Assembly: GCF_000151315.2 (NCBI RefSeq)
Contig: NW_011887297.1
Span: forward strand, 1,217,587-1,281,586
DNA from: Capsaspora owczarzaki ATCC 30864
Taxonomy: Eukaryota; Opisthokonta; Filasterea
Reading direction: 5' to 3'
Length of the DNA: 64,000 nt
The notes beneath the pieces are model-generated. The model worked only from the letters and a program-made list of their open reading frames with translations. It had not been told where the DNA came from and made no database searches. The translations under genes and the position numbers were made by a program. Of the stretch, positions 29,072 through 34,801 are shown piece after piece (position 1 is the first letter of the stretch; every line of letters begins with the position of its first letter).

Positions 29072-32000
29072 ATGACACCGAAGGGATCTGGCGTTGGTCT
29101 GCTGCTTTTGCTGCTCTTCTTCTGCGTGATTTATCACATCCCGTTGGCACAAGCAGTTGACGCCTGTGGTGCTGGCGGCGTGTGCACTTGCTCGGTAACC
29201 ACTGTCAACTGCATTGACAAGGCTCTCACGGCCATTCCAAGCGGAATCCCAAACACCACAACGCAGCTGTAAGAGCTGCCGTTGAGTTGATCTTGCTTCA
29301 ATTCGCAAGACCCCTCATAATTGGTCTACGGTCGACAGGTACCTGAACAACAACCAGATCACCAGCATCCCCACCTCTGCATTCCCAGGCCTGACTGTGC
29401 TGCAAATCTTGTAAGCGAACAACGCCATTCGAGCCATGATGAAGCTTCACAGACAACAATCCGCTCAGTTCTTTTGCGATTCAATTTCATAGGCAGGTGT
29501 ACGGCAACCAGATCACCTATATTCCCGCAGATGCATTCACTGGCCTGACTGCGGTGATATCATTGTAAGCAAGGGCTGGACATTGACGCGAATCTCACAA
29601 ACCAACTGACGCTTTTCGGTGACGCTCTCTGCAGGCAACTGAACAACAACCGTCTCACCGACATTTCGGCAAACGCATTCACCGGTCTGTCTGCGCTGAG
29701 CCAGTTGTAAGCACTCAACGAAACGAAGAATCTCGCGCAAACGGTTTGTTTTCTGACCACTGTCTGCAGGTTTCTGAACAACAACCGGCTCAGCAGCGTT
29801 CCTGCAGGTGCATTCGCAGGCTTGCCTGCGCTGAAACAATTGTAAGCAAGGGATGGACATTGACGAATCACGATGAAACGGCTGACGTTTTGGTGAGAGA
29901 CTCTCTGCAGGCAACTGAACAGCAACCGGATCACCAGCATTTCTGCAACCCTATTCACGGGCCTGACTGCGCTGACTTGGCTGTAAGCAATCAAAAAAAA
30001 AACCAAGTCAGAACCAAAAGTCACACGCAAATTGCTCACTTCGTTCGCGCTCCCATCCGTAGGCGTTTGGAGTTTAACCAGATCACCAGCATTCCTGCCT
30101 CTGTATTCACAGACCTGACTGGGCTGAGTGTTTTGTACGCAAAGCGATGGCATGAAAAATGACACGCAAACTGCTCACTCGTTCGACCCTTTCTCTAGAG
30201 TTCTGCGAAGCAACAATATCACCAGCATTCCCCCCTACGCATTCACAGGCCTGACTGCGCTGTCCCAAATGTAAACAAGCAAAAGACCATCGAGCTACTA
30301 ATGCCCACAACAACAATGGCTAACTTTGTTTGCAACTCTTTCTGTAGCGATGTGTCCATAAACCTGATCACCAGCATTCCCGCCTTCGCATTCGCAGGCC
30401 TGACTGCGGCGACCTACCTGTAAGCAAGCAAAGACGCGAAGAATCATCGCCGACAAACGACTCACTTCATCGCGACTCTATCACGTAGGGATCTATACAT
30501 AAACCAGATCACCAGCATTTCCGACTCCGCATTCACGGGCTTGACTGCGCTGACTTTCTTGTAAGCAAGCGGCAACAGGCAGAACTACACAACCACACAG
30601 GGCTCACTACTCGTTTGCCACTCGCATGTTTAGGAATATGGATAACAACCGGTTGACCAGCATTCTCTCCACTACATTCGCAGGCCTGACTGCGCTCCAG
30701 TACCTGTAAGCAAAAAAACAAGAAAATCCACAAGCAAACGCGCAATAACTCACAATTCTTGGTGCTATTGTCTGCAGGTATTTGTGGAGCAATCAGGTCA
30801 CTTCGATTGCCCCAAATACATTCGCAGGTCTGACTGCGCTGAATAGCCTGTAAGCTGGGAAAGACAGGACGATTGGTGTGCCAAACGACGATCTTATCTG
30901 CGACTCTGTTTGCAGGCAACTGTACGACAACCAGATTACCAGCATTCCTGCAAACGCATTCGATGACCTGAGTGTGCTGAATACCTTGTAAGCAAGCACA
31001 GGCTTGAGGAATCGCGCAATAAACCGCTCACTCGTTTGCAACTCATTCTATAGGTCTCTGAACGACAACCTGATTACCAGCGTTCCCGCCTCTGCATTCG
31101 CAAACCTAACTTCGCTGCAATACTTGTAAACAAGCAACGACAGGAAGAATCACGCACAAGCGACATGCTCATTTGTTTGACTCTATTTTGCAGGTCTCTG
31201 TTCAACAACCGTATCACCAGCATCGCAGCCAACGCATTCGACGACCTGACCGCGCTGGGTTCCTTGTAAGCACGAGCAAACAGACATAAAAATTCACGCG
31301 TCGCCGGCTCACTCGTCTGCGACGCTGTCTGTAGGCATCTTCACACCAACCGGATCACCAACATTCCCTCCACTGCATTCGCAAGCCTGAGCGCGCTGAC
31401 ACAACTGTAAGCAAGCAAGTACGTGACGAGTCACGCTCTAACGGCTCACTTGCTTTCGACTCCATTTGTAGGCATCTCTACAACAACTCAATCACCAGCA
31501 TTTCTGCAGGTACATTCTCAAGTCTGAGTGCGGTGACTTACATGTAAGCAAGGACGGACATTGACCAACCGCGCACAAATGACTCACTTGCTTGTGACAC
31601 ACCCTCTCTCTAGGTATATGTACGACAACCAGATCAGCAGCATTCCCGCAAACACATTCACAGGCATGACTTCGCTGAAGCTGCTGTAAGCAAGCAAAGA
31701 CACACCATGAATCACACACGCATCGTGGCTCATGCGTTTCTGGCGCTTTTTGCAGCTATCTGTCCGGCAACCAGATCACCAGTGTGTCTGCAAACGCGTT
31801 CTCAGGCCTGACTGCGCTAACACAATTGTAAGCAAGCAAAAGCATGAAGAATTGCAGACCAACACAGCTCACTGACTGGCGACTCACTCGTTGGCGACTC
31901 TTTCTGCAGAAGTCTTTATCTGAACCGGATTACTAGTATTTCCGCCGCGGCATTCCCTGGCCTGACTGCGCTCCTCACATTGTAAGCCAAGCAGAGACAA

Positions 32001-34801
32001 GAAGAAACCGCGCGACGCACACACAAACAAACAAACAGCTCACGCATTTGAGACTTTGTACCGCTAGATCTCTGTCCGACAACCAGATCAGCAGCATTCC
32101 CTCATCTGCATTTACCGACCTAACTTTGCTAAAGTTCTTGTAAGAAAGCACAGCTTTGAAGAATCATGCACGAGTGACTAATTGTTTTTTTTTTTTTGCG
32201 ACACACTCTTGCTGCAGGTATTTGTACAACAACCAGATTACTAGCATTGCTGCAAACGCATTCGTAGGCCTGCCTGCCCTGAGTACCTTGTAAGCAAACA
32301 AGGACAAAAAGAATCACAGACAAACGGCTCACTCATTGCCACCACTCCTGTCTCTGTAGACTGCTGCACAACAACACAATCACCAGCACGTTCGCAACCG
32401 CGTTCACAGGTCTCACAACACTGACGACACTGTGAGCAAGAGCTTCTCGTGCATGTGCCTGACTTGCTTCTTACTTTGCGGCACTTGCAGGACTCTCAAT
32501 GACAATCCCTTCACCACGTTGCCGCCTGGTCTGTTTATGGGCTTGCCAAATAGCATGTTCTTGTCGTTAAGTTCCAACCAATTTTCCCAACTCCTGCGCC
32601 CTAACAACTTTGCCTCTGGTGGGAACACTGCCGCTCCACCCAGCACATACGGCAATGCATCCCATCCTTACCGTAAGTTTTTCGAGGTGACCGCAATCCC
32701 CATGTCGTCGGCCGTCACTGACAATCCCAAACTACAGCGTGTGATACAGCCTGTGCCACCTGCTATGCCTCAGGGAGCGGCTCCTGTTGCGCGACCAATT
32801 GCCTGGCCTGCACTTCGTCCGCCTTGTGCAATCAATGCTACGAAGCCTATGGTTTGCTGGGTGGGTCCTGCGCTCCATTCGCCTCCGTTGCCTCCGCCGC
32901 ATCAGTCGCATCCACCCAATCTGCCTCGGTTGCTTCTGTGGCGACAGCTGCGACCAAAGCGTCGATCGCATCCATCGCTTCAGATGCGTCCACGCAATCA
33001 GCCTCAGCTGCCTCCGTCGCCTCAATCGCATCGTCGCAGGCTGCCACGTTTGCCTCGGCTGCTTCTGTTGCTTCAACCGCCTCTGCCTCGATTGCGTCTC
33101 TTGTTTCCGCCACTTCTTCTTTGTCGGCTTCTTTTGCGTCGCTCGCGACTGCATCTTCGGCGTCCATTGCCTCACAGGCGTCCGCATCGGTCGCTTCTGA
33201 TGTATCCGGTACCTCGGCGCTCTCGGCGTCTGCCGCGTCAACCGCATCGGCATCTGCGGCGTCTGCTGCATCCTCCGTTGCAAGCTTCAGCAGCGGTTCC
33301 CAAGACTCATCTCCAGCTGCTGCCATCGCTGCTGCAGTAGTGGCTGTTGCCGTTGTTGCGATAATTGCAGTGGTATTCATCGTGTGGCGACGCCGGCGCT
33401 CGCAACGTCGCTCAGCCATGAGACCAAAGGACTCTGCGGGCGCGGTTGAGATGACAATCTCTCCTCTGAACCATTCGACTCGATCTCACCAAAAGGAGGA
33501 CTCCTCGGCTTACGCCGCTTTTGGCCATCAGCAGGCAGAACCGACGGACTCTGCCGGTCCCATCTATCACGAGGCGTCAGAACTGACAGGCTCCTCCATG
33601 CCCCATTCGACGCGAGCTCATAGAGAGGAGGGCAGCTCATCAGCTTACGCTACAACCGGTCAAAGGCAGCCAGAACCTTTGTACCAAGCCATCTCGACGG
33701 CCTCTCCTGAGGTGATTTACGACTACGCAAGCGCCTATGTTGCCGGCAGCAATTCTCGTCGTGTTCGTGATGGCTTGACGATCGTGAAGCACCTTGCCAG
33801 TGGTAATTTCGGCGATGTCGCACTGGGTCAGGTGCCGCTCAGCGTGTTGCCCCAACGAGCACAAAATTTGCTTGGACCTGCAGCATCCGAAACAGTGCAA
33901 GTTGCAGTCAAGTCGCTCAAGTCTGATGCAGACGAGAAATCCCGCAAGGACTTTGAGAGCGAGGCGAAACTGATGGCTCCGTTCGTGCACCCTAATGTCG
34001 TGCGCCTTCTTGCCGCTCTTGTAGAGTCAGAGCCCCATCTCGTTCTGTTGGAGTTTGTGCAGTACGGCGACTTGCGCACCCTGCTGCAAAAGTCCAAGGT
34101 CCACTCGCTTTGGTGGACTCAGAACGAGCAGATCCATGCTATTCGCCAGATTGCACTCGGGATGGAGTATCTGGGTACGCTCCACTTTGTGCACCGTGAT
34201 CTCGCCGCGCGTAACTGCCTTGTGGGGCAAGGAATGGTGGTCAAGATTGCCGACTTTGGACTTTCTCGCGAGCTGACCGACGAGAACGATTACTATCGCA
34301 TGGAAACGCGCGGCAAACTTCCCGTGAAGGTGAGTAGCGGGTGTGTGCCAATGTTGTTGCTTGTGGTGCTGGTGACACTGACGATCTTGAACTTGCTCTT
34401 CTTGACAGTGGATGGCTCCTGAGACCATGACCTTCCGCAAGTTCTCGACCATGTCCGATGTGTGGGCTTTCGGCGTGACAGCCTGTGAGTAGAGCCATTT
34501 GCTCCGGAAGTGTGTGTGTGTGTGCTTGCATCTCACTTTTCGTCGGTGCACATTGATAGGGGAATGCTTCACTTACGGAACAACGCCGTACGGCAAGATG
34601 GAAGGGCGCGACACGCTGGCTCACGTCGAGGCCGGTGGTCGTCTGCCCATGCCAGAAAACTGTATGCCCGAGCTCTACAACATCATGATGAGTTGCTGGA
34701 ACAGTCTCCCGGAAATGCGACCCAGCTTCACGCAGCTCGTCAAAGCGCTGAAAAACTTTGATGATGGCACGACCAGCCGCGAAATCGGTGCAATGTTGTG
34801 A
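29072..34801 (+). CDS. LRR receptor tyrosine kinase 2 (22 single-LRR exons)
   Basis: 27 exons, 1290 aa: 29072-29268; 22 exons of exactly 72 nt between 29339 and 32431; then 32491-32672, 32738-34329, 34409-34484 and 34560-34801. Order: signal peptide (GLLLLLLFFCVIYHIPLA), N-cap (CGAGGVCTCS), 22 LRRs (about 66-594), C-cap, Cys-rich module ([17 protein letters not shown]), Ala/Ser repeat stalk (about 705-845), membrane span (VAVVAIIAVVFIVWRRRR), juxtamembrane Tyr motifs (DSAGPIYHEA, EPLYQAIS) and tyrosine kinase (about 1003-1270). The kinase has [31 protein letters not shown] and WMAPE, and is almost identical to that of receptor kinase 1. Its last four exons have the same phases, three of them the same lengths (182, 76, 242). 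ATG 29072 directly precedes the signal peptide. Confidence 0.94.
29339..32431 (+). repeat. array of 22 LRR exon-intron units
   Basis: Exon starts: 29339, 29493, 29635, 29770, 29911, 30063, 30199, 30348, 30489, 30634, 30778, 30916, 31054, 31194, 31335, 31472, 31614, 31756, 31910, 32068, 32218, 32360; each is 72 nt. Introns are 59-86 bp, so the period is about 131-158 bp. Exons share a core (CAGATCACCAGCATT, then GCATTC..AGGCCTGACTGCGCTG). Introns also resemble each other: most begin GTAAGCAAG and contain a CTCAC-TCG-TT-GCGACTC block before a pyrimidine-rich end. This indicates repeated duplication of exon plus intron. Confidence 0.93.

Follow-up and report, generated by a model that had tools for sequence, protein, structure and literature searches.

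A predicted LRR receptor tyrosine kinase of Capsaspora owczarzaki and its genome-wide family with one-repeat 72-nt exons

Introduction

Genes in which each 72-nt exon encodes one leucine-rich repeat (LRR) are already known as rice LRR-kinases, brown-algal ROCOs and gonadotropin receptors. The brown algal LRR-ROCO and NB-ARC-TPR proteins are candidate immune receptors (PMC11378527, citing Zambounis 2012). The passages of this source devoted to them describe tandem shuffled 72-bp phase-2 LRR exons and positively selected sites on the concave face, both as in the Capsaspora family reported here, as well as additional LRR-only genes, to which the kinase-less Capsaspora members can be likened (PMC11378527). 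As depicted in these passages, the algal receptors differ by their cytoplasmic GTPase/ATPase ends, by having no transmembrane tyrosine kinase and by their unrelated lineage; alternative splicing is documented in them (PMC11378527), whereas in the Capsaspora arrays it would be hypothetical. The part of PMC3050792 used here presents the rice proteins as membrane receptor kinases with 72-nt one-LRR exons, whose phase-2 introns cut the first Leu of the xxLxLxx motif, again as in Capsaspora. The LRR introns of gonadotropin receptors are given as phase 2 in a passage of PMC11378527.

The rice kinase is of the plant RLK type and that of Capsaspora of the HRDLAARN tyrosine type; also in contrast to rice, Capsaspora has kinase-less members with the same ectodomain, and tracts pass between them and the kinases. 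Vertebrate LGR and glycoprotein hormone receptors are similar in that LGR4 and LGR5 are among the closest solved LRR folds, but they have G-protein-coupled ends and few genes, and we know of no shuffling in them. Vertebrate paired activating/inhibitory receptors combine near-identical ectodomain parts with different signalling ends. Capsaspora tails resemble these and the ITAM/ITIM receptors by a tyrosine pair (YxxL-x6-9-YExV/I); they differ by an LRR ectodomain, by a second tyrosine motif mostly ending in V and by a signalling role that is putative. Lamprey VLRs likewise use 24-residue LRR modules as units of diversity and assemble them somatically from templates, while each Capsaspora unit is a complete exon with its intron, encoded in the germline (one germline assembly). 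What is new here is that the design belongs to a genome-wide receptor family.

Results and Discussion

Gene organization

The window (the whole stretch analysed, 64,000 nucleotides of contig NW_011887297.1 of C. owczarzaki ATCC 30864) carries at 29072..34801 (+) a gene of 27 exons. According to a gene model made from the sequence alone, it is predicted to encode a single-pass LRR receptor tyrosine kinase of 1290 aa. A putative signal peptide, ectodomain and single transmembrane helix were discerned by eye in its translation. The kinase is of the tyrosine type (PF07714, E 1.4e-86); the translation contains HRDLAARN, which we take to be a tyrosine-type motif, and VAVK, presumably a kinase motif as well. 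A Pfam scan of the protein gave LRR and kinase families, with ROC and COR domains absent. Among solved structures, the nearest LRR folds are those of the IGF acid-labile subunit, which is the best match, and of proteins including LGR4 and LGR5. The features are as follows; exons rest on the gene model, exons 25–27 also on Pfam, and the second receptor on sequence comparison.

29072..29268, +, exon 1: start codon, predicted signal peptide (by eye), LRRNT cap (weak LRRNT match, 21.5 bits, cut-off 25.8)
29339..29410, +, LRR exon 2, 72 nt, phase 2
29493..29564, +, LRR exon 3
29635..29706, +, LRR exon 4
29770..29841, +, LRR exon 5
29911..29982, +, LRR exon 6
30063..30134, +, LRR exon 7, donor GTACGC
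30199..30270, +, LRR exon 8
30348..30419, +, LRR exon 9
30489..30560, +, LRR exon 10
30634..30705, +, LRR exon 11
30778..30849, +, LRR exon 12
30916..30987, +, LRR exon 13
31054..31125, +, LRR exon 14
31194..31265, +, LRR exon 15
31335..31406, +, LRR exon 16
31472..31543, +, LRR exon 17
31614..31685, +, LRR exon 18
31756..31827, +, LRR exon 19
31910..31981, +, LRR exon 20
32068..32139, +, LRR exon 21
32218..32289, +, LRR exon 22
32360..32431, +, LRR exon 23
32491..32672, +, exon 24: final LRR plus C-terminal cap; borders in phase 2 (5') and phase 1 (3')
32738..34329, +, exon 25: Cys-rich module, Ala/Ser/Val stalk, predicted transmembrane helix (by eye), juxtamembrane part, tyrosine kinase start
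34409..34484, +, exon 26: kinase
34560..34801, +, exon 27: kinase end, stop codon
15752..18833, -, second receptor of the same family: two LRR exons (18833-18762, 18687-18616), Cys-rich module, kinase

The initial annotation had described 22 consecutive phase-2 exons of 72 nt with one LRR each, and this description holds throughout: between 29339 and 32431, each of the 22 exons measures exactly 72 nt, follows AG and precedes GT, has phase-2 introns on both sides and encodes 24 residues, i.e. one repeat. Within 29271-32490, phase 2 is open in 24 AG-72-GT stretches (two of them outside the 22-exon series), compared with a mean of 2.9 and a maximum of 8 in 200 mononucleotide shuffles. The LRR sequence runs on beyond the series into exon 24. 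Codon 24 (Leu) is cut 2+1, i.e. the first Leu of xxLxLxx is split by the intron, so that, judged from this anatomy, the recognition strand would be built across the exon junction and each rearrangement would also yield a new composite strand.

The exons had also been held to be skippable and exchangeable in frame. Indeed, the whole frame is kept in 253/253 contiguous in-silico skips and in 200/200 random reorderings of the 22 LRR exons, and an in-frame stop results if any of introns 1–23 is retained. Such neutrality of every skip would suit alternative splicing in each cell, with combinatorial skipping of LRR exons giving many ectodomain isoforms per gene. Passages of two papers lend this some weight: brown algal LRR-exon genes produce skip isoforms (PMC11378527), and in Capsaspora exon skipping is regulated by stage and over-represented among protein kinase genes (PMC3870316). 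However, the cassette exons counted there genome-wide, 191 with inclusion below 95% and 39 below 85% (PMC3870316), are few against the approximately 760 or more LRR exons, and retained introns of the family bring stops in 443 of 464 cases. It also counts against splicing that RT-PCR across repeated exons is prone to template-switch artefacts. We consider this explanation unlikely.

The receptor family

An IUPAC pattern of the LRR exon end has 764 matches in the genome versus 4 for the control. LRR units in the fetched loci were located by nhmmer; the pattern recovers 338/381 units, an optimistic recall because the loci were partly picked with that same pattern. In the 27 sequences read, 498 of 513 LRR exons are exactly 72 nt long, and there are 37 arrays of 2-45 LRR exons each, some truncated where the sequence read ends. 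None of these 498 exons has a stop in the phase-2 frame, compared with 171 and 460 of them in the other two frames.

The genome holds 40 closely related kinases, 27 of them with the Cys-rich module. The same module is found in 32 of 35 kinase-less tail loci (condensed from 51 matches; 15 multi-piece loci mix split matches and repeated tails). The window gene thus has dozens of family members, some of which lack the kinase but have its type of ectodomain. Neither this nor the occurrence of the design in other lineages had been recognised in the initial annotation. The kinase of the second receptor in the window is 96% identical to that of the window gene over 186/187 positions.

An ITAM-like tyrosine pair is present in all 11 kinase-less tails read whole, a count without L016, which belongs to the kinase genes, and without the first of the L035 receptors, in which the reading frame ends prematurely. 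The tail motif is YxxL-x6-9-YExV in 10/11 intact tails and has YExI in one. The strict ITAM consensus is YxxL/I-x6-12-YxxL/I, and V lies outside it.

Introns and the repeated unit

Introns 2–22 of the window gene are alike beyond the splice signals (mean pairwise score 4.43; -3.17, sd 0.27, in 50 shuffled sets), which confirms the sequence sharing noticed initially; introns 1, 23, 24, 25 and 26 score -6 to -11 against them. Across the family, 464 introns have a common 5' consensus at positions 1–24. This likeness could be explained by independent insertions of a mobile intron (introner), one into each repeat. However, exon and intron identity of a unit climb together (r 0.70, 104 pairs), and intron versus silent divergence is 0.355/0.355, 0.191/0.173 and 0.093/0.073 in three identity bands. 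In each of these bands introns and silent sites have diverged to a similar degree, therefore exon and intron travel together. Besides, an intron pattern has 18 matches versus 0 for the control, 17 of them inside stretches matched as LRR arrays and the remaining one ~0.8 kb upstream of a Cys-rich module. An introner origin was rejected on account of this co-divergence and near-confinement to LRR arrays, and we regard it as extremely improbable.

Selection on the concave face

The dN/dS check on the concave LRR face suggested with the initial annotation was run across the family and supports it. For 136 disjoint exon pairs, dN/dS is 1.77 (1.50-2.08) at the five exposed residues of xxLxLxx, with the pooled silent rate as denominator, versus 0.35 in the framework. 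The underlying dN of 0.306 at these residues compares with dS of 0.173, an intron divergence of 0.191 and a framework dN of 0.060. If silent sites of the same five positions serve as denominator, the ratio is 1.34 (1.05-1.79). The first test, with six positions (22, 23, 1, 3, 4, 6) and 104 pairs, was weaker, 1.30 (0.98-1.76). The five-position set is the published xxLxLxx motif but was adopted after the per-position table of the first test had been seen, so that dropping position 6 was not blind. These values show diversifying selection on the exposed concave-face residues across the family.

Gain, loss and exchange of units

Length change by unequal crossing-over had been proposed for the window gene. 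This is upheld for its paralogs, with 2-45 exons and with duplicated arrays differing by whole units. It found no support in the window gene itself: no recent duplication was found among its 22 units, whose best within-gene match is 0.57-0.73; their best match elsewhere in the loci read is 0.65-0.77, and the nearest array in the genome is 66% identical. Gain, loss and exchange of exon units thus appear in the comparison of paralogs and not in the window's own array.

The duplicated arrays hold 40 and 36 units, with 30/36 aligned units at 0.87-1.0 identity. Within arrays, 17 unit pairs reach >=0.92 identity, in 5 of 29 arrays. Two receptors encoded on different contigs, one with and one without a kinase, have in common an ectodomain tract of ~1.4 kb with a 137-nt indel, which equals one unit; two further ectodomain sharings link receptor tyrosine kinase and kinase-less genes. 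The nearest unit lies in a kinase gene for 52/91 kinase-less units, and the reverse holds for 67/202 (88/381 units with unclassified gene end were omitted), so the unit pools are mixed, though not fully. The 36-unit copy, on contig C16, adjoins an inverted array piece, and tblastn found no kinase after it; exchange is therefore not confined to working genes.

The window array, lacking recent duplicates, would agree with an ordinary ancient LRR layout, in which 72-nt phase-2 exons are a fossil of exon duplication with no present role in diversity. So would the rice LRR-kinases (PMC3050792, part used here) and the brown algal ROCO genes (PMC11378527, passages cited above, where gonadotropin receptors are also named), in which exons agree in size and phase and introns in their site. 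Against it, other members have recently changed unit number and exchanged tracts, and exposed residues are under diversifying selection. Such a fossil is, in our opinion, unlikely.

Proposed mechanism

Most probably, the gene encodes a modular LRR receptor tyrosine kinase of a family whose units are exchanged and whose exposed residues are diversified for variable ligands. The unit of evolution would be the ~137-nt exon-plus-intron and not the domain. Paralog comparison shows that such units and whole LRR-plus-Cys blocks have been gained by duplication, lost, and traded among paralogous loci through unequal/ectopic recombination, the product staying readable because every unit is frame-neutral. 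Family-wide, selection has favoured change at the exposed xxLxLxx residues and retained the framework. The receptors may bind variable ligands on other cells, prey, host or parasite surfaces via the concave face. The kinase would phosphorylate itself and probably also the tyrosine tails of kinase-less members, the phosphorylated tyrosines presumably being read by SH2 proteins.

Pieces copied, lost and exchanged, together with a predicted binding surface that changed unusually fast, are what a repertoire that recognises variable targets would be expected to show. To our knowledge, no ligands are known for the receptor tyrosine kinases that have expanded in unicellular holozoans; unit exchange, selection on exposed residues and kinase/kinase-less pairs point to the kind of ligand, namely variable, non-self or cell-type specific. 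We suggest, tentatively, a germline-diversified paired-receptor repertoire in a unicellular animal relative: approximately 27 or more LRR tyrosine kinases and 32 or more kinase-less members with ITAM-like tails would build their ectodomains out of a common stock of approximately 760 or more exchangeable LRR exons of 72 nt under diversifying selection and swap ectodomain blocks with each other. Paired immune/allorecognition receptors would thereby have a pre-animal counterpart, possibly extended by regulated exon skipping. With such a family, the idea that recognition repertoires preceded animals can be put directly to the test in a culturable amoeba. The family also shows LRR-exon shuffling of the brown-algal style arising in another lineage, where it is joined to a different type of signalling end.

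Tandem SH2 pairs were also observed in the genome. One is on contig C2, with no kinase or phosphatase match nearby in the lists examined. Another, on contig C13, has a tyrosine phosphatase domain after it and is a possible reader of paired phosphotyrosines.

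Structure of the receptor gene

The receptor gene and two further features of the window are the following.

29072-34801 (+): LRR receptor tyrosine kinase gene with 27 exons encoding 1290 residues (gene model from the sequence)
15752-18833 (-): second receptor of the same family, on the opposite strand about 10 kb away, in which just two LRR exons are recognised; its kinase has 96% identity to that of the first
35379-35930 (-): open frame downstream of the first receptor, with abundant Gln and NPF motifs, which by eye looks like an endocytic adaptor tail of the epsin/AP180 type

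Exons 2-23 of the receptor gene, 22 in all, each measure exactly 72 nt and are flanked on their inner sides by phase-2 introns of 63-86 nt. Within 29271-32490, 24 AG-72-GT stretches open in phase 2 were observed versus a mean of 2.9 and a maximum of 8 in shuffles, so that the 22 consecutive 72-nt phase-2 exons proposed in the initial annotation are confirmed and chance is excluded. It follows from this anatomy that any exon order preserves the reading frame. The first Leu codon of the LRR strand motif xxLxLxx is interrupted by the intron, so that two neighbouring exons together build each recognition strand. The protein is composed of a putative signal peptide with an LRRNT-like cap, LRRs (LRR_8 in 14 stretches, E 1.1e-156, Pfam), a Cys-rich module, an Ala/Ser/Val-rich stalk, a putative transmembrane helix and a tyrosine kinase (PF07714, E 1.4e-86, Pfam), the signal peptide, stalk and transmembrane helix being called by eye. 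Rice LRR-kinases have LRR exons of the same size and phase, with the intron in the same codon (PMC3050792).

A family of receptors

The receptor is not a lone gene and belongs to a family. In the assembly (27.46 Mb in 29 contigs), which contains a large set of tyrosine kinases and 6 T-box matches and by this gene content points to a filasterean, most likely Capsaspora owczarzaki, a pattern for the LRR exon end (35 places) gave 764 matches (290 + 474), and the same pattern read backwards as a control gave 4. Run on the window and 26 loci fetched from the genome, nhmmer found 513 LRR exons; these loci are not a random sample because they were selected for pattern or kinase matches. Exactly 72 nt were found in 498 of the 513, and the length is a multiple of three in 11 of the remaining 15. 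None of the 498 contains a stop in the phase-2 frame, versus 171 and 460 in the other two frames. The exons are grouped in 37 arrays with 2-45 members each, some of the arrays being cut at the edge of the stretch read. No close relative or recent unit duplicate of the window array was found in the genome and the loci read. A description of this family in Capsaspora was not found in the open-access literature searched, a scope without Suga 2012, the main Capsaspora receptor kinase paper.

The window kinase is matched by 40 kinases over 185-187 of 187 positions with 72-100% identity. Full-length matches ranking after these reach at most 56%; a partial match on contig C18 shows 86% over 73 residues. 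Other members carry a tyrosine-rich cytoplasmic tail in place of the kinase. This tail, first noticed behind several arrays, has 51 matches at 35 loci. For 27/40 kinases (within 4.5 kb) and 32/35 tail loci (within 2.5 kb), the Cys-rich module is located upstream in the same orientation. All 11 tails read whole contain a YxxL-x6-9-YExV pair (YExI in one), and five tyrosines align in 7/7 tails compared. The paired motif is close to the ITAM consensus; no ITAM work on Capsaspora was found in the open-access literature searched. In the kinase-less receptors at C9:1299000-1308999 the tyrosine tail is doubled, with lengths of 209 and 176 residues and 12 and 10 tyrosines. Just beyond the left end of the window, an 11-unit array (C6:1214159-1216050) is followed by a juxtamembrane part resembling that of a kinase receptor, and the frame ends ahead of any kinase.

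Gain, loss and exchange of units

The loci gain and lose units, each an exon with its intron, as well as whole blocks, and exchange them with one another. On contig C16, a duplicated segment contains two arrays, one with 40 units and one with 36; identity is 0.87-1.0 in 30 of 36 aligned units, and the four extra units of one copy are located inside a period-4 repeat. The 36-unit array runs head-on into three oppositely oriented LRR exons (C16:34656-35023), an arrangement like that left by an inversion whose breakpoint fell within the LRR exons. As this inverted piece adjoins the copy and tblastn detected no kinase behind the array, the copy may be broken.

One kinase-less receptor (C2) has a tract of about 1.4-1.5 kb in common with a kinase receptor (C9). 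The tract starts close to the 3' border of exon 1 and stops past the first Cys-rich module. Measured in steps of 60 nt, its identity is 0.80-1.00, in most steps at least 0.93, except at a single indel of 137 nt (length taken from the positions) that equals one exon plus one intron; both upstream and downstream identity drops to about 0.5 or less. Smaller pieces common to other kinase and kinase-less receptors are found between C14 and C9 (455 bp at 93%) and between C14 and C3 (one unit at 0.978). The nearest relative lies in a different array for 289/381 units, partly because of the C16 duplications. One gene (C5:417484-423771) seems to carry three successive LRR-plus-Cys blocks before the kinase, with 6, 9 and 8 LRR exons, each block having its own LRRNT-like cap.

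Inter-unit introns diverge at the silent-site rate, their retention leads to a stop in 443/464 cases, and the 18 genome matches of the intron pattern are, as far as placeable, at LRR loci only. The intron likeness, already pointed out from the sequence alone, is therefore explained by descent of the whole exon-intron unit.

Selection on exposed residues

The exposed residues have been driven to change. By simple counting over 136 exon pairs (identity 0.78-0.99), disjoint but with exons of one array not independent, dN at the five exposed xxLxLxx positions was 0.306 (0.263-0.351), versus 0.060 (0.050-0.071) for the framework and 0.173 (0.146-0.201) at silent sites; intron divergence was 0.191 (0.163-0.225; 112 pairs). 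The ratio of exposed dN to pooled dS is 1.77 (1.50-2.08); taking the silent sites from the exposed codons themselves gives 1.34 (1.05-1.79). Identity bands agree (2.09 at 0.88-0.99, 1.48 at 0.70-0.88); with six positions, tested earlier, the ratio was 1.30 (0.98-1.76).

PMC11378527, which also points to gonadotropin receptors, describes brown algal ROCOs with 72-bp phase-2 LRR exons that shuffle, alternative splicing of LRR exons and concave-face selection; exon type, shuffling and concave-face selection are as in the present family. For Capsaspora itself, PMC3870316 reports regulated exon skipping, with an enrichment among kinase genes.

Variable ligands would be bound on the concave face, and signalling would proceed via the kinase and via phosphorylated tails of the kinase-less members, with SH2 proteins perhaps reading these tails. 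At one locus on C13 (G000:C13:292722-294496, +), a pair of SH2 matches precedes a match to a tyrosine phosphatase, in SHP-like order; the product is a possible reader of paired phosphotyrosines.
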